DNA of 64,000 bases, taken from positions 13,082 to 77,081 of the forward strand of contig JAPPLH010000067.1 in the NCBI GenBank assembly GCA_028819505.1, read 5' to 3'. The position numbers were made by a program, and so were the translations under genes. Positions 1-13,174 of this stretch are shown piece by piece. This stretch comes from Acidimicrobiaceae bacterium (lineage in GTDB: Bacteria > Actinomycetota > Acidimicrobiia > Acidimicrobiales > Aldehydirespiratoraceae). A model generated the notes under the pieces. It ran no database searches and had not been told where the DNA came from. It saw only the letters and a list, made by a program, of their open reading frames with translations. Positions within the stretch are counted from its first letter, which is position 1. Every line of letters starts with the position of its first letter.

Positions 1-45
1 CGGCTCCTCGTCGACAACTACGACCCGCACCCCCACGGCGGGTGA
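1..45 (+). CDS. C-terminal end of an unidentified upstream gene (partial)
   Basis: An open frame enters from the left edge and ends at a TGA at 43-45, giving the last 14 codons of a protein ending in DPHPHGG. It lies about 100 bases before hisG in the same direction. A histidine-pathway gene such as hisE would be a natural neighbour, but the tail is too short to identify and shows no recognisable motif. Confidence 0.35.
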   Translation, partial: RLLVDNYDPHPHGG

Positions 46-145
46 GCGGCAGCAGCCCGGGCCATGGGGTCGGGCAGGGCCCCGTCGGTGCGCCGGTAGC
101 CTCGGCACGGCCTGAACCGCGCCCTCAACCGCCACAGGACCCCCC

Positions 146-1021
146 ATGCTGAAGCTCGTTCTCCCCAAGGGATCGCTCGAGAAGTCCACGCTCGAGCTGT
201 TCGAGGCTGCCGACCTGCCGGTCCGGCGGTCCTCCGACGTGGCCTACAAGGCGTCGGTGGCCGACCCGCGCATCGACGATGTCAGGATCCTGCGACCCCA
301 GGAGATCCCGGTCTACATCGCCGACGGTCTGTTCGACATCGGCATCACCGGGCGGGACTGGGTGGAGGAGACCGGAAGCGAGGTCGTCTCGCTGGGGGAA
401 CTGAAATACTCGAAGGCCACGTCGCTGCCGATCCGGGTGGTGCTGGCCGTGGCCGACGGCTCGCACTGCCAGAGCGTCGCCGACCTGCCTCAGGGTGTGC
501 GGGTGTCGACCGAGTACCCGGCGCTCACCCGGCGGTTCTTCGCCGACGCCGGCATCGAGGCCCAGATCGCGCTCAGCTACGGCGCCACCGAGGCCAAGGT
601 CCCCGACATCGTGGACGCGGTGGTCGAGATCACCGAGACCGGCCGGGCGCTGCGGGCCGCCGGACTGCGCATCATCGACACCCTGCTGACCTCCTACACC
701 GAGCTGATCGCCAATCCCGCGGCCGCAGCCGACGCTGGCAAGCGGCACGCGATGGGGCAGATCTACACACTGCTTCAAGGCGTGCTGGAGGCCAGGGGCA
801 AGGTGCTGGTGAAGCTGAACGTGGGCGCCGACGCGCTCGACGACGTGATCGAGATACTGCCCGCCATGAAGGCCCCCACCGTCAACGAGCTGTTCCAGGG
901 CGCGGGCTACGCGGTGGAGACGGTGGTGCCCCGCAGCGAGATCAACATCCTGATCCCTGCCCTGCGCGACCTGGGCGCCACCGACATAGTGGAGATGCCC
1001 ATCTCCAAGATCGTCCCGTAG
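146..1021 (+). CDS. hisG: ATP phosphoribosyltransferase, long form (HisG)
   Basis: HisG catalyses the first step of histidine synthesis, joining ATP and PRPP to give phosphoribosyl-ATP in the cytoplasm. The 291-residue length is that of the long form, which has its own C-terminal ACT-like regulatory domain and needs no HisZ. The N-terminus LVLPKGSLE and the GITGRDW segment (about residues 69-75) belong to the catalytic half; the last 80 residues (from KVLVKLNV) form the histidine-binding domain, so feedback inhibition by histidine is expected. The ATG at 146 follows a weak purine-rich ACAGGA. The stop lies 12 bases before the next small gene, which may be co-transcribed. Confidence 0.95.
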   Translation: MLKLVLPKGSLEKSTLELFEAADLPVRRSSDVAYKASVADPRIDDVRILRPQEIPVYIADGLFDIGITGRDWVEETGSEVVSLGELKYSKATSLPIRVVLAVADGSHCQSVADLPQGVRVSTEYPALTRRFFADAGIEAQIALSYGATEAKVPDIVDAVVEITETGRALRAAGLRIIDTLLTSYTELIANPAAAADAGKRHAMGQIYTLLQGVLEARGKVLVKLNVGADALDDVIEILPAMKAPTVNELFQGAGYAVETVVPRSEINILIPALRDLGATDIVEMPISKIVP

Positions 1022-1033
1022 GGGAGTCTCGCC

Positions 1034-1213
1034 ATGAAGAATGGATGGCTGAAGTACGGGGTCGGGTCCGCGATCGGCGTGGGCGCGGGCGGCGGCGCCG
1101 GTGTGGGCGCCATCTTCGGGGCCCCGGGCGTGGGCGCGGCCGTCGGCGCAGCCATAGGCGTCGTGATCGGTGTGTGGATCTCCAGGAGGGGAGTCAGGCG
1201 CAAGGCCTGCTGA
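1034..1213 (+). CDS. small glycine-zipper membrane protein, 59 aa
   Basis: This short ORF starts at an ATG eight bases after a clear GGGGAG ribosome-binding site and begins 12 bases after the hisG stop. After a short charged start (MKNGWLKYG) nearly the whole protein is a Gly/Ala/Val-rich hydrophobic stretch with G-x-G-x-G-x-G spacing, as in glycine-zipper membrane segments, and it ends in a basic tail (RRGVRRKAC). It probably inserts in the membrane as one or two packed helices. No family or function can be assigned. The good RBS, the clean membrane-protein composition and the conversely oriented next gene support it as real. Confidence 0.6.
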   Translation: MKNGWLKYGVGSAIGVGAGGGAGVGAIFGAPGVGAAVGAAIGVVIGVWISRRGVRRKAC

Positions 1214-1222
1214 CCAGCCCTG

Positions 1223-1714
1223 TCAGGCGACCGGGTCGTCCTCCGAGCCGTCGTCGCCTGATTCTCCGGCGTCGCCGTCTTCGGGGCGGTTCTTGAGTTG
1301 GACGAAGGCCATCCGGATCTGAGACAGGGCGTCCTGCAGCGTGGGCTCCGCTTCGCCGAGGCGCCCCTTCATCCCGTCGAGCAGCGCGCCCAGGGCGTCG
1401 ATCGCCATCGCCCCCTCGGCGAAGTTCGGCGGCTGGTTCGAGAGATGCAGGGCGGCCAGTTCGTACAGGCCCATGGCGTGGTTGGCGACCACCACCGAAG
1501 CGGGCACCGCCTTGAGCCGCTCGCGGGACTCGGCCAGATCCCGTATGTACTGTTCGGCCTGCTCCCGCTCCTCCGGCGACAGGCTGTCGAGGTCGAACTC
1601 CTCGTGCGCGGCGGCTCCAGCGTCGGCTGTTGAGGCGTCGTGGCCCGCAGGGCCGGCATCCGACCGGCGGTCGCCGACCGGTACCTCGCCTCCGGGGGTC
1701 CACAGCGTGCTCAT
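1223..1714 (-). CDS. DUF1844 domain protein
   Basis: The 163-residue protein has an acidic, disordered N-terminus (residues 1-45), a helical core with the DUF1844 pattern NHAMGLYELAALHL (about 80-93) followed by AIDALGALLDGMKGRL, and an acidic tail rich in Asp, Gly and Glu. DUF1844 proteins are small helical cytoplasmic proteins of unknown role, commonly next to infC in actinobacteria. The neighbourhood here fits: it is transcribed away from infC across a 250-base divergent region. The ATG at 1714 is the only good start. Function unknown. Confidence 0.85.
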   Translation of the reverse strand: MSTLWTPGGEVPVGDRRSDAGPAGHDASTADAGAAAHEEFDLDSLSPEEREQAEQYIRDLAESRERLKAVPASVVVANHAMGLYELAALHLSNQPPNFAEGAMAIDALGALLDGMKGRLGEAEPTLQDALSQIRMAFVQLKNRPEDGDAGESGDDGSEDDPVA

Positions 1715-1895
1715 CCGAACACCTCCCGGTGCGACACTGGCAGATGGGCCCGGGGCCCGAGCGGCCCGTGAGCGCAGCGAACAAGAGCGGGAGTGACACC
1801 GTCGCGACGCAGCATGATTTCAAGCTATCCGCGCTCACTCCTAGCCGCATGCCGCAACCGGCTGCTAGCCTACCGGAGTCAATCCAGCGGACATG

Positions 1896-4699: not shown

Positions 4700-4899
4700 G
4701 AATCCTCGCTCCGGCCGGGCGGCGCTCGTTAGCGGCGCTCCAAGACTTCAACGGTCGACTGCCGCTACGGCCCGGCAGCGAGGCTGGCACATCAGGGTAT
4801 CTGACGACAAATGTCGTGTCAAACACGGGTTCCTCGTCGACAATCGAGATCGCGATCATCCGCCGGGCAGCGGGCGCGAACGCCATTAGCCTCTCTCGG

Positions 4900-5979
4900 A
4901 TGATCGAGGGCTACGAGCAGGACGTTGCCGATGCCGAGGAGCGCCTGGCCGCGGCTGCCGACCTCGATGCCGTGGCCGGCATCGAGCGGGACATGCTCGG
5001 ACGCCGCTCGAAGTTCACCGAGGCCAAGCGCCGGCTCGGCGAGCTCGACGCCGGGGAGCGGGCCGCGGCCGGCCGCCGCCTCAATGAGGCCCGCGGCAGG
5101 GTCGAGGCTGCCGTGGCCGCGGCCCGCGGGCGGCTGGCGGCCGCGGACCGCGCCGAGCGCTACGCGGCCGAGCGGCTCGACCTCACCGAGCGGCTCGACC
5201 TCGCCGAGCGGCTGCGCCCCACGGAGCGTCTCCACCCCGCTGAGCGCTTGCGCCTCGCCGAGCGCCTGCGCCAGCAGGCCGTGTCGAGCAGGGGGCGCTT
5301 CCATCCCGTGACCCAGGCCCGCGACCGTCTCGAGGACGTGTTCGTCGGGATGGGCTACACCGTCGCCGAGGGCCCCGAGGTGGAGACGGCCTGGTACAAC
5401 TTCGAGGCCCTCAACATCCCCGACTGGCATCCGGCCCGGGGCAGCTTCGACACCATCTTCGTCGACCTCGGGGCGCCCGAGGAAGTCATGCTGCGCTCTC
5501 ACACCTCACCGGTGCAGATCCGGGTGATGGAGAAGCGCAAGCCGCCCGTCTACATCGTGGCGCCGGGCCGGACCTTCCGGACCGACACCGCCGACGCCAC
5601 CCACCTGCCGGCCTTCAACCAGATCGAGGGCCTGGCCGTGGACCGCAACATCACCATGGGCGACCTCGCGGGCACCATCGACGAGTTCGTCAGGGCCTTC
5701 TTCGGCAGGGAGGTCAAGAGCCGGCTGCGCCCGTCCTACTTCCCGTTCACCGAGCCGTCGGCCGAGTTCGACATCTCCCGGCCCGACGGGTCGTGGCTGG
5801 AGCTGGGCGGCTGCGGGATGGTCCATCCCAACGTGCTGAGCAACTGCGGGATCGACCCCGAGGAGTGGCAGGGCTTCGCCTTCGGCTTCGGCATCGACCG
5901 GCTGGCGGTGATGCGCCACGAGATCGACGACATCCGCGAGTTCGTCAACAGCGACACTCGCTTCCTGAGCCAGTTCTGA
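4900..5979 (+). CDS. pheS: phenylalanyl-tRNA synthetase alpha subunit
   Basis: The catalytic subunit of PheRS, which charges tRNA-Phe as an alpha2-beta2 heterotetramer with PheT. The N-terminal coiled-coil domain begins at ATG 4900 (MIEGYEQDV), matching family length (359 aa). The class II core is intact: motif 1 region FVGMGYTVAEGPEVE, motif 2 FRTDTADATHLPAFNQIEGL and motif 3 GFGFGIDRLAVM. The linker between coil and catalytic core, normally a short segment, is expanded here into six hexapeptides of the RLDLAE type. pheT follows about 110 bases downstream in the same operon. An earlier in-frame start at 4816 adds residues that do not look like PheS. Confidence 0.95.
   Translation: MIEGYEQDVADAEERLAAAADLDAVAGIERDMLGRRSKFTEAKRRLGELDAGERAAAGRRLNEARGRVEAAVAAARGRLAAADRAERYAAERLDLTERLDLAERLRPTERLHPAERLRLAERLRQQAVSSRGRFHPVTQARDRLEDVFVGMGYTVAEGPEVETAWYNFEALNIPDWHPARGSFDTIFVDLGAPEEVMLRSHTSPVQIRVMEKRKPPVYIVAPGRTFRTDTADATHLPAFNQIEGLAVDRNITMGDLAGTIDEFVRAFFGREVKSRLRPSYFPFTEPSAEFDISRPDGSWLELGGCGMVHPNVLSNCGIDPEEWQGFAFGFGIDRLAVMRHEIDDIREFVNSDTRFLSQF
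5173..5280 (+). repeat. six degenerate 18-bp repeats inside pheS
   Basis: Six consecutive 18-base units encode RLDLTE, RLDLAE, RLRPTE, RLHPAE, RLRLAE and RLRQQA between the tRNA-binding coil and the catalytic domain. The units differ in codons, so the expansion is not brand new. It would lengthen the helical arm or hinge that positions the tRNA-binding coil. Confidence 0.85.
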
Positions 5980-6088: not shown

Positions 6089-9000
6089 ATGAAGGTGCTG
6101 CTGTCGTGGCTCAGGGAGTTCGCGCCCGGCATCGACGGCGACCCGGCCGAACTCGGCGACGTGCTCAGCGCGCTCGGTCTGACGGTCGAGGAGACGACCG
6201 TCACCGGCTCGGTGCCCGACGGCGTGGTGCTGGGCCGGGTACTCGAGCTGAGCCCCCACCCCGACGCCGACCGGATCCAGCTCGTCGAGGTGGACGACGG
6301 TTCCGGCAAGACCCTCCAGGTCTGCTGCGGTGCGTTCAACATGGCCGTCGGCGACCTGGTGCCGCTGGCCCGGGTGGGCACCGTGCTGCCGGGCGGGCTG
6401 GAGATCGCCCGCCGCAAGATGAGAGGCCAGGCCTCCGAAGGCATGTGCTGCTCGGAGATCGAGCTCGATATGGGCGACGACGCCGACGGCATCATGATTC
6501 TCAACGACCGGGTCGCGGCCGGCGCCGGGCCGGGCATGCCGCTGGCCGACGCTCTGGGACTGGCACCCGACGTCCTGTGGGACCTCGACGTCGGAGCCAA
6601 CCGGCCCGACGCCCTTTCGGTGATGGGCGTGGCCCGCGACCTGGCGGCCGGTCTCGGCGTGGCCTTCGAGCCGCCCGACTGGTCCACGGCCGCCTCCGGC
6701 GGTGACATCGCCGAGTCGGTCGAAGTGGAGATCGTCGACCCCACCCTCTGCGGCCGCTTCGTCGGCCGGGTGCTGCGCAACGCCCCTCAGGGCTCGTCGC
6801 CGCCGTGGATGGCCAACCGGCTGACCGCGCTGGGCCAGCGCCCGATCAACCTGGTCGTCGACATCTCCAACTACGTGATGCTCGAGCTGGGCCAGCCCAG
6901 CCACACCTTCGACCTGGGCCGGGTGGCCGGCGCCCGGATCCGGGTGCGCCGGGCCCGTGACGGCGAGACCATCACCACCCTCGACGGCGCGCACCGCACG
7001 CTGGCCGCCGGCGACGGAGTGATTGCCGACGGCGACGACGAGGCGATCGGCATCGCCGGCGTGATGGGCGGCGCGTCCACCGAGATCGACGCCGGCACCA
7101 CCGACGTGCTGGTGGAGATGGCGTGGTGGGACCCGCCGTCGATCTCCCGCACGGCCAAGCGGCTGAACCTCTCCAGCGAGGCCGCCACCCGCTTCCGCAG
7201 GGGCGCCGACTGGGGCTACAACATGGAGCGCTGCATGAACCGCTTCGTGCAGCTGGCCGCGGCGCAGGGGGCCGAGGTTGCCCCCGGCACGATCGACGAG
7301 CGCGGCGACCTGCCCGACCGCCGCCCGCTGCGGGTGCGGGCCGCCAGGGTCAACAGCCTGCTCGGCACCGGCCTGGGCGCCACCGAGATGGCCGGTCACC
7401 TGCGGTCCATAGGTTTCGGGGCGGACCCCGCCGGCGACGCCGAGCTGGAGGTGGCCATCCCGACTTGGCGCTGGGACACCGAAACCGAGACCGACATCGC
7501 CGAGGAGGTGGCCCGGCTCCACGGGTACGAGAGCATCGAGCGCACCGTGCCCACCGCCAACGAGGCCGGCGGGCTGTCGGCCTACCAGAAGGACCGGAGG
7601 CTGGTGCGCGACGTGCTGGTGGGTGCGGGCTGCTACGAGACCCAGCCGATGCCGTTCGTGGCGCCCGGCTCGCTGGCCGCGGTGGGCCTGCCCGAGGACG
7701 GCGTCACGCTGTCCAACCCGGTCGACGACAGCGAGTCGGTGCTGCGGACCTCGCTTCTGCCTGGCCAGGTGCGGGCGGTGGCCTACAACCAGCGCCATTT
7801 CAACGGCGATGTGCGGCTGTTCGAGATAGGCCACGTCTACCTGCCCCCGCCGGAGGGCCGGCTGCTGCCCGACGAGAGGGAGTTCCTGGCCGTGGCCCTG
7901 TCGGGCGCGGAGGCCCCGGCCGCGGTGGCGGTCCTCGACCTGCTCACCGATGCTCTGGCCCTGCCCGCGGTCGAGCTGCGAGCCGCCGAGCCTCCGGGGA
8001 TGCACCCCACCCGGTCCGCCGAGGTGGTGGTGGCCGGGCGGTCCCGGGGCGCGGTGGGCGAGGTCGATCCAGAGGTGCTCGAAGCCGCGGGGGTGTCGGG
8101 CCGGGTGGCCTGGCTGCAACTCGATCTGCAGGATGTGCTCGACGGCCCCCGATCACGGCGCCGCTACCGGCCTGTCAGCACGTACCCGCCCAGCGATGTG
8201 GACTTGGCCTTCGTGGTGCCCGACACTGTGGCCGCGGCCCGGGTCGAGCGGGCGCTGCGAGCCTCGGCCGGCTCGCTGCTGGCCCGCATCGAGCTTCGCG
8301 ACGTCCATCGGGGCTCGGACATGGCCGGCGGGACGCGCAGCCTCGCCTACCGCTTGAGATTACAGGCCCTTGACCGCACCCTCGATGATGCCGAGACCAC
8401 TGAGGCCCGTCGGCGCTGCATCGACGGGACCGTCCGCCTGCCGGGCGTGTCGCTCGCTCGCGGTGCCGCACCGAAGGTCACCGACGATGCCGCGCGCCGC
8501 AGTGGCTCGCTGCCCGGTCCCCAGGCCCTCACGGTGGAGATCGATGAGACGCAATTGAGCTTCGAGACCGACTCGGGGACGTTCTCAGCCGACCGGTTGA
8601 GCCCCGGCACACAGCTCCTGTTGGACCGGGCACCCCCGTTGACCGGCGACGAGGCGCGAGTGTTGGACTTGGGATGCGGCTGGGGTGCCATCGCCTGCGT
8701 CTTTGCGCGGCTTCACCCTGAGGCCGAGGTGTTGGCGGTGGACGTGAACCCGCGGGCGCTGGAACTCACCAGAGCGAACGCCGACGCCAACTTTGCCGGC
8801 AACGTGACCGTGGCCCACCGAGACGACGTGGACCCGGACCTCCGTTTCGAGCGCATCCTGTGTTTTCCGCCGATCCCGACACGCGGTGACGGCGAGCGAG
8901 ACCGTCGAGAGATGCTCAGCACATGGCTGCCCCGGCTGACGTCTGCCGGGAGGGCGCACTTGGTGGTGCCCGACGACCCGGCAAGCGACTCGCTGGTCGC

Positions 9001-9109
9001 TTGGCTCACCATGAACGCCCGCGTGGCGACCCTGACGACGGAGACAGGTTTCCGTCTGCTGGAAGTGAGCCCCGAGATGCGAGCATCTACGGCTAGGCGT
9101 ACCAGCTAG
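6089..9109 (+). CDS. pheT: PheRS beta subunit fused to an RsmC-like methyltransferase domain
   Basis: At 1006 residues this is about 200 longer than a normal PheT. Residues 1-770 carry the usual order: EMAP/tRNA-binding domain (LELSPHPDADRIQLVEVD), B3/B4 editing domain, B5 and the FDX-ACB anticodon-binding domain near residues 690-770. After a 45-residue linker, residues about 815-1000 form a class I SAM methyltransferase of the MTS/RsmC type: SGTFSADRLSPGT, motif I VLDLGCGWG (about 859-867), motif II VDVNPRALELTRANA, and WLPRLTSAG. The motif IV asparagine (NPPI in stand-alone relatives) is replaced by phenylalanine (CFPPIP), so guanine-N2 methylation may be lost or altered. No stop or frame break separates the parts. 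The ATG at 6089 gives the normal PheT N-terminus MKVLLSWLREF. Confidence 0.93.
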   Translation: MKVLLSWLREFAPGIDGDPAELGDVLSALGLTVEETTVTGSVPDGVVLGRVLELSPHPDADRIQLVEVDDGSGKTLQVCCGAFNMAVGDLVPLARVGTVLPGGLEIARRKMRGQASEGMCCSEIELDMGDDADGIMILNDRVAAGAGPGMPLADALGLAPDVLWDLDVGANRPDALSVMGVARDLAAGLGVAFEPPDWSTAASGGDIAESVEVEIVDPTLCGRFVGRVLRNAPQGSSPPWMANRLTALGQRPINLVVDISNYVMLELGQPSHTFDLGRVAGARIRVRRARDGETITTLDGAHRTLAAGDGVIADGDDEAIGIAGVMGGASTEIDAGTTDVLVEMAWWDPPSISRTAKRLNLSSEAATRFRRGADWGYNMERCMNRFVQLAAAQGAEVAPGTIDERGDLPDRRPLRVRAARVNSLLGTGLGATEMAGHLRSIGFGADPAGDAELEVAIPTWRWDTETETDIAEEVARLHGYESIERTVPTANEAGGLSAYQKDRRLVRDVLVGAGCYETQPMPFVAPGSLAAVGLPEDGVTLSNPVDDSESVLRTSLLPGQVRAVAYNQRHFNGDVRLFEIGHVYLPPPEGRLLPDEREFLAVALSGAEAPAAVAVLDLLTDALALPAVELRAAEPPGMHPTRSAEVVVAGRSRGAVGEVDPEVLEAAGVSGRVAWLQLDLQDVLDGPRSRRRYRPVSTYPPSDVDLAFVVPDTVAAARVERALRASAGSLLARIELRDVHRGSDMAGGTRSLAYRLRLQALDRTLDDAETTEARRRCIDGTVRLPGVSLARGAAPKVTDDAARRSGSLPGPQALTVEIDETQLSFETDSGTFSADRLSPGTQLLLDRAPPLTGDEARVLDLGCGWGAIACVFARLHPEAEVLAVDVNPRALELTRANADANFAGNVTVAHRDDVDPDLRFERILCFPPIPTRGDGERDRREMLSTWLPRLTSAGRAHLVVPDDPASDSLVAWLTMNARVATLTTETGFRLLEVSPEMRASTARRTS

Positions 9110-9420
9110 GCCCTTGCCAGCGCCCCGCTGTTCGAGCAGGGCACACTGAAGCCCGACGACCTGCAATCCGCTCCAGCCTGTCAGCGAGCCGACGGCGTCC
9201 TTCACAGCGGCATCCAACGAACTGGTCGCCTCCACAGAATGGATGTAGTGGCGCCCGTTCCGAGTGGCGTGGCCGGTCTCGGCCGACGGCTCGCGGATCA
9301 TCGGGTCGCGGATCATCGGGTCGCGGTTCATTTGCGCTCTGACGACGGTGATGCGCCCTACCGTCGCCGGGGCGTCGGCGGCGTACGCGTGGGCGACCAC
9401 CAGCAGCAGGTCGGCCCGCT
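9110..9420. other. non-coding stretch with a 15-bp tandem repeat
   Basis: No convincing gene. The only structure is a tandem repeat, TCGCGGATCATCGGG, at 9291-9305 and 9306-9320 with the first six bases of a third copy after it. Open frames here have no codon-like composition. It leads into a toxin-gene remnant and is best read as decayed toxin-antitoxin DNA. Confidence 0.5.
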
Positions 9421-9580: not shown

Positions 9581-12500
9581 CTAGCGGAAGTCGCGGCTGG
9601 GGAGGGTGGCCGGCAGCGCCAGCGGCGCCAGGTGCTCGGCGATGACGTTCACCACGCCCTCGTGGCGCTCCAGGCGGCCCCGGATCGTCAACGCCCTGGC
9701 ACCGATGGCGAGCCTGCGGAACCGGGCCTGGCAGCCCTTCGACACGATCACGTTGGTGAGGCCGGTCTCGTCCTCGAGGTTGATGAACATGGTGCCCCCG
9801 GCGGTCATGGGACGCTGACGGTGCGACACCGTGCCGGCCACCTTCACCCGGCCGACCGGGTGAGTGTGCAGGTCCGCGGCGGCCACCACGCCCGTGGCGT
9901 CCAGCTCGGCCCGGTGGAAGCGGGTGGGATGGCCGTCGGGGGCCACGCCGGTGGTCCACAGGTCGGCGGCGGCCTGCTCCTGGGGCGACATGGGCCGCAG
10001 CCTCGGCGCCTTCGTCCCGGTGACCGCGCCGGGCAGGCGATCGGCATCCGACTGCGCCGCCGCGCCGGCCGCCCACAGAGCCTCGCGCCGGTCCAGGCCC
10101 AGCGAGTCGAACGCCCCGGCCGCGGCCAGCGACTCCAACGCCGGCAGGTCCAATGGCGGCAGGCGTCCCTGGAGCTTGCGCCCCCGTCCCGCGCGTCGTC
10201 GACCGTTCGGGGCCTGTCGGGCGGCCCCGGCCCGCTCGGCCGCGATCCTGCGCTCCGACATGGCCCGGACCAGGTGCTCCATCGACTCATACGGGGCCTC
10301 TTCAGCCATGGCCGCGGCCAGCTCCGGGCCCACTCCCCGCACCGACGACAGGCCCAGGCGCACCGCGGCGCCGCCCGTCGAGGCCTGGCACGGCTCCAGC
10401 GTCGCCGCGTCGGCCGACAGGTTGATGTCGGGACCATGCACTGCCACGCCGTGGCGGCGGGCGTCCTGGCACAGCGAGTGGGGCGAGTAGAAGCCCATCG
10501 GCTGGGCGTTCAGCAGCGCCGCGCAGAACGCGGCCGGGTAGTGCCGCTTGATCCACGCCGAGGCGTACACCAGGTAGGCGAACGACACCGAGTGGCTCTC
10601 GGGGAACCCGTAGGTGGAGAAGGCCACCATCTTGTGCCAGATCTGCTCGCCCGCCTCCTCGCCGACGCCCCGCTCGGCCATCCCGGCGAAGAACCGGCCC
10701 CGCAGCCGCTCCATGCGCTCCACCGACCGCTTGGCCCCCATCGCCCGGCGCAGCTCGTCGGACTCCGCCGGGGTGAACCCGGCCACGTCGATGGCCATCT
10801 GCATGAGCTGCTCCTGGAACAGCGGCACCCCCAGCGTCTTGGCCAGCGACCGCTCCAGCAGCGGATGCAGGTAGGTGACCGGCTCGACTCCGTTGCGGCG
10901 CCGGATGTAGGGATGCACGGAGCCGCCCTGGATCGGCCCGGGCCGGATCAGCGCCACCTCCACCACCAGGTCGTAGAAGCCGCGGGGCCGCAGCCGGGGC
11001 AGCGTGGCCATCTGCGCCCTCGACTCCACCTGGAACACGCCCACCGTGTCGGCCTCGCACAGCATGTCGTACACCGCCGGGTCCTGGGGCAGGGCGGCCA
11101 GGTCGATCTGCTCGCGATGGGCCGAGGCCACCATGTCCACCGCGTAGTGCAGCGCGGAGAGCATCCCCAGCCCCAGCAGGTCGAACTTCACCAGGCCCGC
11201 GGCGGCGCAGTCGTCCTTGTCCCACTGCAGCACCGACCGGTCGGCCATCGACGCCCACTCCACCGGGCACACCTCGGCGACGGGCCGGTCGCAGATCACC
11301 ATCCCGCCCGGGTGGATGCCCAGATGCCGGGGCCCTCCCTCGGCCTCAGCGGCCAGGCTCAGCACGTCGGCTGGGACATCTTCGAGGTCTTGGTCAGCGG
11401 TGCCTGCGCCCGCGGCCGGCTCGCCCAGGCCACCCCGGCGGTCCAGCGACTTGGCCCAGGCGTCCTGGCGGGCGGGCGGATGGCCCAGCGCCCGGGCCAT
11501 GTCCCGCACCGCCGAGCGGGCCCGGTAGGCGATCACGTTGGCCACCAGCGCGGTGCGGTCGCGGCCGTAGCGGCCGTACACGTACTGGATCACCTCCTCG
11601 CGCCGGCCGCTCTCGATGTCGATGTCGATGTCGGGCGGGCCGTCGCGCTCGGGCGACAGGAACCGCTCGAACAGCAGGCCCAGCGTCACCGAGTCCACGT
11701 TGGTGATGCCCAGCACGTAGCACACCGCCGAGTTGGCGGCCGACCCCCGGCCTTGGCAGTAGATGTCGCGGCTGCGGCAGAACGACGCGATGTCCCACAC
11801 CACCAGGAAGTAGCCGCAGAATCCGAGCCGCTCGATCATGTCCAGCTCGTGGCCGATCTGGCGCCAGGCGCCCGGCACCCGCTCGGCCTCCGGCGGGCCG
11901 TAGCGGGCGGTGGCGCCCTCGACGGCGAGACGGCGCAGGAAGGCGGCCTCGTCGAGGCCGTCGGGGCACGGGTACGGCGGCAGTTCCGGCGCCACTAGCG
12001 ACAGGCTGAACGCGCATTCCCGCCCCAGACGGGCCGCGGCGTCGGTCGCGCCGGGGTAGCGGGCGAAGCGGCGTGCCTGCTCGGCGCCGGAGCGCAGGTG
12101 GGCGCATCCCCAGGCGCTGAGCCGGCCGTCGTGGTCGCTCAGGCCGCGACGGGCGCCGGCCGCGGCCAGGGCGTCGGCCAGGCGCCGGTCGGCGGGCGCG
12201 GCGTAGCGCACCGCGTTGGCGCACACCGGCTGAACCCCCCGGCGCACGCCGAGTTCGGCCAGGGCGTCGTTGCGGTGGGAGTCCAGCGGGTCGCCGTGGT
12301 CCCACAGCTCCACGAACACGTTGCCGGCGCCGGCCGCGCCGGTCAGCCGGTCGAGCGCGGCGGCCGCGGCCCGGGGACCGTGCTCGACCAGCGCCGAGGG
12401 CACCGCTCCGCCGTGCGCGCCGGTGAGGATCGCCCACCGGTCGCGGTGGGCCGCGGCCGCCTCCAGGAACGTCTCGGTCGACAGCCGGGGCTCGCCCTTG

Positions 12501-13030
12501 CGCCCGGCCATGTGGGCCCGGCTGATCAGCGTCCCCAGGGCCGCGTACCCGGCCGCGTCGCGGGCCAGCACAACCACCGTGCGGCTCTGCCTGCGCCGCT
12601 CAGATGCACGGGGGGACGAACGCCGGGACGGGCGGGTCAGGTCGAGGGTGAGCTCGGCGCCGAACACGGTGGGCAGGCCGGCCTCGGTGGCGGCCCCGGC
12701 GAGCCGCACCACCCCGTAGAAGCCGTCCCGGTCGGTCAGCGCCAGGGCGTCGAGCTCGAGCCGGGCGGCCTCGGCCACCAGCTCCTCCGGGTTCGACGAG
12801 CCGTCCATGAAGCTGAACCGCGAGCGCGCATGCAGCTCCGCATACGGCACCCGACCCGCCCCGGAGCCCCTGCCGGCTTGGCGGCCAGAAAGACTGCGGA
12901 CCACGCCGGCTCCATTGGAGGCAGTGTGGTCGCTCCTGCGGTCCCCGTTCGACCACAGCGGTGCGCCCGCCCGGTCCGACAGGCGGCGCTCCAGTTCCCG
13001 CCAGGAAATGACCGGATTGTCGAACCCCAT
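9581..13030 (-). CDS. dnaE2: error-prone DNA polymerase III alpha subunit DnaE2
   Basis: DnaE2 is the C-family polymerase of the actinobacterial mutasome, which copies past lesions and causes induced mutation together with ImuA' and ImuB. The 1149-residue protein has an N-terminal PHP domain (YAELHARSRFSFMDGSS), the catalytic aspartates in GPPDIDIDI and KFDLLGLGML, the helix-hairpin-helix region and an OB fold near the C-terminus (VAGTVSHRQRPMT). ATG 13030 gives MGFDNPVISWRELERRL, the family N-terminus, and is preferred to an upstream TTG. A perfect LexA-type site lies 19 bases upstream, so SOS induction is expected. DnaE2 lacks the tau-binding C-terminal domain of replicative DnaE1. Confidence 0.95.
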   Translation of the reverse strand: MGFDNPVISWRELERRLSDRAGAPLWSNGDRRSDHTASNGAGVVRSLSGRQAGRGSGAGRVPYAELHARSRFSFMDGSSNPEELVAEAARLELDALALTDRDGFYGVVRLAGAATEAGLPTVFGAELTLDLTRPSRRSSPRASERRRQSRTVVVLARDAAGYAALGTLISRAHMAGRKGEPRLSTETFLEAAAAHRDRWAILTGAHGGAVPSALVEHGPRAAAAALDRLTGAAGAGNVFVELWDHGDPLDSHRNDALAELGVRRGVQPVCANAVRYAAPADRRLADALAAAGARRGLSDHDGRLSAWGCAHLRSGAEQARRFARYPGATDAAARLGRECAFSLSLVAPELPPYPCPDGLDEAAFLRRLAVEGATARYGPPEAERVPGAWRQIGHELDMIERLGFCGYFLVVWDIASFCRSRDIYCQGRGSAANSAVCYVLGITNVDSVTLGLLFERFLSPERDGPPDIDIDIESGRREEVIQYVYGRYGRDRTALVANVIAYRARSAVRDMARALGHPPARQDAWAKSLDRRGGLGEPAAGAGTADQDLEDVPADVLSLAAEAEGGPRHLGIHPGGMVICDRPVAEVCPVEWASMADRSVLQWDKDDCAAAGLVKFDLLGLGMLSALHYAVDMVASAHREQIDLAALPQDPAVYDMLCEADTVGVFQVESRAQMATLPRLRPRGFYDLVVEVALIRPGPIQGGSVHPYIRRRNGVEPVTYLHPLLERSLAKTLGVPLFQEQLMQMAIDVAGFTPAESDELRRAMGAKRSVERMERLRGRFFAGMAERGVGEEAGEQIWHKMVAFSTYGFPESHSVSFAYLVYASAWIKRHYPAAFCAALLNAQPMGFYSPHSLCQDARRHGVAVHGPDINLSADAATLEPCQASTGGAAVRLGLSSVRGVGPELAAAMAEEAPYESMEHLVRAMSERRIAAERAGAARQAPNGRRRAGRGRKLQGRLPPLDLPALESLAAAGAFDSLGLDRREALWAAGAAAQSDADRLPGAVTGTKAPRLRPMSPQEQAAADLWTTGVAPDGHPTRFHRAELDATGVVAAADLHTHPVGRVKVAGTVSHRQRPMTAGGTMFINLEDETGLTNVIVSKGCQARFRRLAIGARALTIRGRLERHEGVVNVIAEHLAPLALPATLPSRDFR

Positions 13031-13048
13031 CCCCAAACTCTAGTTGAG

Positions 13049-13062: not shown

Positions 13063-13174
13063 TCACTCTGCTCCGTAATGACCGATGTTAGTTGAATAAA
13101 ATGATAGTTAGTTATATGTCATAGCAATAATCCGGTACCGCAGCTGTATGCGGCTCTCAGGTTGGAGGATCGAA

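Follow-up and report, generated by a model that had tools for sequence, protein, structure and literature searches.

A PheT protein carrying an RsmC/SasO-like methyltransferase tail altered on its target side in two genomes of one Acidimicrobiales genus

Introduction

What might explain why two members of a single bacterial genus carry an RNA methyltransferase domain in frame at the end of PheT, and why that domain should lack the asparagine of motif IV that marks its stand-alone relatives? The locus lies in a 64,000-nucleotide stretch of DNA (the window: positions 13,082 to 77,081, forward strand, of contig JAPPLH010000067.1, assembly GCA_028819505.1) from the genome of an Acidimicrobiaceae bacterium, here called G000; other G-numbers denote the genomes with which it was compared. 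A preliminary description had read one long frame as PheT fused to an RsmC-like methyltransferase with a SAM-binding motif and a changed motif IV, for which it suggested a structural or regulatory role or an altered chemistry. We have followed up that reading by comparing the fused gene, its domains and its surroundings with those of relatives.

Results

The coordinates of the locus are collected in Table 1. Pfam recognizes in the fused protein the tRNA_bind (46-145), B3_4 (221-389), B5 (415-480), CLM (483-680) and FDX-ACB (697-779) domains, and by both Pfam and NCBIfam the PheT portion is complete to about residue 780, with a TIGR00472 (pheT_bact) score of 599.7 bits against an equivalog cut-off of 402.65. 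The MTS family PF05175 follows at residues 823-969 (77.4 bits, cut-off 23), and the RsmC-like domain start SGTFSADRLSPGT is present in the same frame. A second pheT was found neither in G000 nor in G008, the other genome with the fusion (94% and 95% complete, respectively), so the fused protein must act as the PheRS β subunit.

Table 1. Features of the fused pheT locus, with positions in the window
Feature	Position	Strand	Evidence
pheS, partner gene upstream of fused pheT	4816..5979	+	PF01409, PF02912
pheT plus methyltransferase domain, one in-frame gene	6089..9109	+	open frame, ATG, 1006 aa plus stop; Pfam, NCBIfam
FDX-ACB anticodon-binding domain, aa 697-779	8177..8425	+	PF03147, 65 bits
His740 codon, aligned with T. 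thermophilus Tyr731	8306..8308	+	alignment to Thermus chain; Tyr in 29/29 non-fused PheTs
Linker, aa 791-809, predicted disordered	8459..8515	+	pLDDT <50, model residues 102-120
RsmC/SasO-like class I methyltransferase domain, aa 810-997	8516..9079	+	PF05175; model pLDDT 84; 1dus Z 23.1, 3dmf Z 22.4
Motif I VLDLGCGWG, aa 858-866, SAM side, kept	8660..8686	+	sequence, alignment
Motif IV CFPPIP, aa 925-930, where stand-alones have [SCA]NPP[IV]R	8861..8878	+	74/74 stand-alones NPP[IV]; CFPPIP also in G008
3' flank, matching the flank directly after the non-fused G014 pheT end (empty site)	9104..9274		76% identity, 172 columns

A whole-protein search of 61 genomes (G000 and 60 relatives) gave only one other match across both parts, in G008, over residues 1-997. 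There the frame is likewise unbroken, with the same junction and the same CFPPIP, and the two fused proteins are 83-85% identical over 995-997 residues; 11,015 bases of the G008 contig agree without a difference with VYBO01000088.1 (Acidimicrobiaceae bacterium isolate SB0673_bin_3). Because G008 was assembled separately, its identical junction and motif show that the fusion in G000 is neither chance nor an assembly join. The fusion is thus present in 2 of 16 genus genomes and in 2 of 51 family genomes, with no further case among those 51. None appeared among the matches listed for 397 order genomes, or among 395 class genomes searched at E <= 1e-42, in draws that were made without G008 and in which few candidates were scored per genome, so that distant independent fusions could escape detection.

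In 12 of the 14 non-fused genus genomes pheT stops by itself directly after the FDX-ACB domain; of the other two, the contig of G002 ends first, and G014 has a fragment with an in-frame stop. Separate genes in relatives together with a frame break at the junction had been named in the preliminary description as what would argue against a fusion: separate genes are indeed what relatives have, but neither fusion-bearing genome has a frame break. G014 also supplies the empty site, with argC about 640 bases further on. In seven other non-fused genomes inspected argC starts at most about 140 bases after pheT, and in both fused genomes it is on a different contig from the fused gene. A conserved inverted-repeat-like element, GTGCAACTAGTATCT ... 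TGCACATAGTTGCA, precedes argC in non-fused relatives (L075-L083) and resembles an operator, perhaps of an arginine regulator. G014 itself has two overlapping pheT pieces on two contigs (L086 1-1485, which is G014:C272, and G014:C399:49279-50769), one of them with an in-frame TAA, which points either to a second copy in decay or to faulty assembly.

Where did the tail come from? The host genome has a stand-alone homologue at positions 8510-9064 (-) of the contig, about 4 kb before the window starts and about 13 kb from the fused domain, to which it is 57% identical; the stand-alone protein has NPPI. For comparison we assembled 74 stand-alone domains, comprising 14 from the genus and 60 hand-picked, and hence non-random, from the family and order match lists. 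A 76-domain tree pairs the fused domains with each other (100/100), their common stem being 0.53 changes per site long, inside a clade of genus stand-alones (100/100) and near its base. Neither a position inside the host's own subclade (p-AU 0.18) nor one outside all genus stand-alones (p-AU 0.47) is rejected, and we therefore leave the duplication undated. A foreign origin is disfavoured by the nesting within the genus clade, with the proviso that the outside placement is not rejected. Most simply, the tail would be a duplicate of the lineage's own RsmC/SasO-like gene that then changed rapidly. At the stand-alone locus before the window (L001 839-2652 (-), contig C148) the stop codon of the RsmC/SasO-like gene abuts the start codon of a second gene, which by eye resembles a SpoU-type methyltransferase. 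A preprint (PMC12637814) pairs SasO with SasN, two genes of corresponding kinds, and reports that SasO, a relative of RsmC, methylates G1051 of 16S rRNA; this may be the job of the parent stand-alone enzyme.

Set against the 74 stand-alones, the two fused domains have kept one side of the methyltransferase and changed the other. Before residue 920, on the SAM side, both retain 11 of 11 fully invariant columns, DxGxG included, and motif I DxGCGxG and the acidic residue of motif II are present in both; after residue 920 both have lost 4 of 13. The lost target-side residues are Asn926 (now Phe), Lys936 (Glu), Leu964 (Pro) and Gly965 (Ala), and the nearly invariant Arg930 (now Pro), His963 (Asp) and Arg981 have gone as well. 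The contrast between the two sides is a trend that falls short of significance (p = 0.098, or 0.15 and 0.11 when the thresholds are loosened). The new target-side letters are conserved between the two species, G000 and G008 being identical at 16 of 16 residues over 958-973. The SAM site looks intact, and ordinary guanine-N2 methylation by the tail is unlikely, because the motif IV asparagine and several other target-side residues have been lost. The net charge of the fused tails is -12 and -5, compared with a mean of 0.1 and a range of -7 to +5 for the stand-alones, and since the tail is acidic, contacts with protein would be likelier than contacts with RNA.

Structure prediction gives the tail a full class I methyltransferase fold (pLDDT 84, pTM 0.83, from 6 aligned sequences). 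Among solved structures the nearest are MJ0882 (1dus, Z 23.1), Thermus RsmC (3dmf, Z 22.4), RlmG and E. coli RsmC, and the matches to 1dus, 3dmf, 2zul, 2zwv, 4dcm and 2pjd all fall between Z 20.9 and 23.1. A model of the last 317 residues, again from 6 aligned sequences, has two folded parts separated by residues 791-809 at pLDDT <50, and its overall pTM is 0.58. As modeled, the tail is a module tethered by a linker, and its predicted orientation to PheT is unreliable.

Purifying selection acts on the tail, whose dN/dS between G000 and G008 is 0.35 by NG86 (bootstrap 0.22-0.59) and about 0.27 by YN00. For the stand-alone copies in these two genomes the value is 0.26 (0.17-0.41), with an interval that overlaps that of the tail, so that constraint on the tail is perhaps somewhat weaker than on its parent. 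Within the tail, the SAM half (0.31) and the target half (0.42) have wide, overlapping intervals. Catalytic or target residues have been lost from a domain that selection still maintains, which is the combination expected of a pseudo-methyltransferase.

The change is not confined to the tail. We aligned 31 PheT proteins (29 non-fused and 2 fused), drawn from 14 of the 16 genus genomes, G002 and G014 being left out, and from 17 further genomes, 16 of the family and one of the order. Position 740, the equivalent of Thermus Tyr-β-731, is His in both fused proteins. In the T. thermophilus enzyme G34 of tRNA-Phe contacts Asp729, Ser742 and Arg780 and stacks on Tyr731, according to a review (PMC9976931), and Tyr731 is also treated in PMC7540514. 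The equivalents of Asp729 and Ser742, Asp738 and Ser751, are kept in the fused pair. Residue 790 is Ala or Ser and residue 791 Arg in the pair, whereas all 29 others have Arg at 790; equivalence with Arg780 is uncertain, the alignment having been extended by two residues there. Residues 736-790 include 25 columns that 90% or more of the 29 non-fused proteins share; both fused ones differ at 5 of these, and at 1 of the 337 such columns of the body (Fisher p = 6e-6, for a comparison picked post hoc and uncorrected for relatedness). Membership of the PheT family holds despite the missing aromatic, because G34 stacking is a recognition feature and not part of the family score.

An altered tRNA-Phe that might explain the FDX-ACB change is not seen in G000, whose tRNA-Phe is identical over 74 bases to that of seven genus genomes with non-fused PheT, the comparison covering 8 of the 12 genomes in which a pattern search detected the gene; the same search found none in the G008 assembly. 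The partner subunit has a peculiarity of its own in G000: after its N-terminal coiled coil, at about residues 118-155, PheS (window 4816-5979) contains a run of ERL-type repeats, AERLDLTERLDLAERLRPTERLHPAERLRLAERLRQQ, at a site where the PheS of 14 genus relatives has a single short ERLDLTERLP stretch.

Different parts of the fused gene group with different relatives. The first 550 residues of G000 PheT fall with those of the non-fused G007 and G011 (98% identity to G007), and the corresponding part of G008 PheT with the non-fused G010 and G015, whereas the FDX-ACB segments of G000 and G008 group together (100/99) on a stem of 0.32. Window positions 1-1730 and the stand-alone gene place G000 in the group of G006, G008, G010, G013 and G015. 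By these groupings the body of pheT and its fused 3' part differ in ancestry, and they imply within-genus recombination, in which either one tail cassette was joined to two PheT bodies or the body of the G000 fused gene was replaced. Convergent with the fused gene is a gene for a DnaE-type DNA polymerase (window 9581-13036 (-)). In relatives its best matches are on contigs other than their pheT contigs. Over its first 572-938 window bases it has 95% identity to G007/G011, and over the remainder it is nearest to G010 (92%).

Discussion

We tentatively prefer to read the tail as a pseudo-methyltransferase that probably binds SAM and has been added to the anticodon-binding domain, where it would have a structural or regulatory role. 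A copy, most simply of the lineage's own stand-alone RsmC/SasO-like gene, is joined in frame to the 3' end of pheT; its SAM-side residues have been kept while several on the target side were replaced, presumably at the cost of the parent's guanine-amine methylation; and a flexible linker of about 20 residues would hang it from the anticodon-binding domain. That domain has lost its G34-stacking aromatic in parallel, with tRNA-Phe constant in G000. Both the place of the tail beside this domain and their joint change point to a structural or regulatory role there. Given that the aromatic is lost and the tRNA unchanged, the likeliest job of the tail would be to support or tune the weakened domain through protein contacts, which is the least certain step, and SAM or SAH could be its stabilizing or sensing ligand.

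A rather unlikely rival, and the one that survives best, makes the tail a passive passenger without specific function, constrained only to fold harmlessly on an essential protein, while the FDX-ACB changes would be by-products of the junction or of recombination that the protein tolerates. The rarity of the fusion in the genus, the long, fast stem, a dN/dS slightly above that of the stand-alone genes and the loss of target-side residues are all what a passenger would show, but it would hardly have kept every SAM-side residue in both species, nor fixed the same new letters on the target side, nor been retained while recombination exchanged PheT bodies. It is improbable that the tail is an active methyltransferase of new target or chemistry, in which Phe926 and rebuilt loops accept another substrate that PheRS brings to it, perhaps a protein or tRNA-Phe. 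Its SAM motifs and overall fold are intact, its new motif IV residues are conserved in both species and it adjoins the anticodon-binding domain; against this, the asparagine is invariant in all 74 stand-alones, other target-side residues have been lost with it, and the surface has become acidic. A bolder version of the regulatory role, which we regard as a long shot, would have a dead RNA methyltransferase recruited as a SAM-responsive module that retunes or takes over the reading of tRNA-Phe, coupling charging to SAM/SAH, with the tail and the altered half-domain exchanged between species as a cassette. Highly doubtful is a direct tRNA clamp, in which the former rRNA-binding face grips tRNA-Phe and replaces the lost stacking on G34: descent from an RNA methyltransferase family, a position adjoining the anticodon-binding domain and the loss, in parallel, of the residue equivalent to Tyr731 would suit it, but the fall in net charge and the loss of the conserved Arg930, Lys936 and Arg981 would not. 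Very unlikely, finally, is an artefact or a separate product (through contig chimerism, an overlooked stop, or translation initiated internally at the in-frame GTG at 8534 or TTG at 8555 near the domain start), since, although these are metagenome-type genomes of many contigs, G008 has the same open junction, G014 has the empty site, the tail is shared and constrained, and by eye no clear ribosome-binding site precedes either codon.

The preliminary description was right about the fusion (an unbroken frame with the expected domains, found again in a second genus genome), about motif IV and about the SAM motif, and the structural or regulatory role that it suggested is supported as probable over ordinary N2-guanine methylation. 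It did not foresee that the tail would be a duplicate, that the target side would have lost more than its asparagine, that the FDX-ACB domain would have changed or that the gene would be of mixed ancestry. A sole, presumably essential PheT that combines a decayed RNA methyltransferase and a stacking-residue change with a tRNA that has stayed the same amounts to a natural experiment in domain gain by synthetases and in how strict G34 recognition must be. Since the parent gene, the empty site and both types of allele occur within one genus, ancestral and derived states can be compared directly.

How does the fused protein compare with known systems? No PheT-methyltransferase fusion was named in the titles returned by a literature search, whose coverage of subscription journals is poor, and the accessible part of a review (PMC7373986) yielded nothing on one. 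Appended domains of aminoacyl-tRNA synthetases are already known, and PheT with a decayed methyltransferase is a new variant. Compared with bacterial PheT (TIGR00472; the T. thermophilus, E. coli and M. tuberculosis structures), the fused protein has all domains through FDX-ACB, but it is about 200 residues longer, has His at the Tyr731 equivalent, and has the Arg780 equivalent shifted by one residue or lost. In eukaryotic FDXACB1 a Rossmann methyltransferase-like domain is joined to an FDX-ACB domain; the order of domains and the methyltransferase family differ, however, FDXACB1 is not a PheRS subunit, and our literature search found nothing on its biochemistry. The tail resembles the catalytic domain of the two-domain RsmC and RlmG, whose N-terminal domain is itself a decayed copy, but it has one methyltransferase-like domain, has lost motif IV, and scores 41.6 bits against the RsmC equivalog cut-off of 295, which belongs to a two-domain model. 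The single-domain RsmC/SasO-like guanine-N2 methyltransferases (SasO and, by fold, MJ0882) are its parent family by tree, and it shares their fold and SAM motifs. Unlike them, it has FPP in place of NPP, has lost target-side residues, is acidic, and is fused to PheT.
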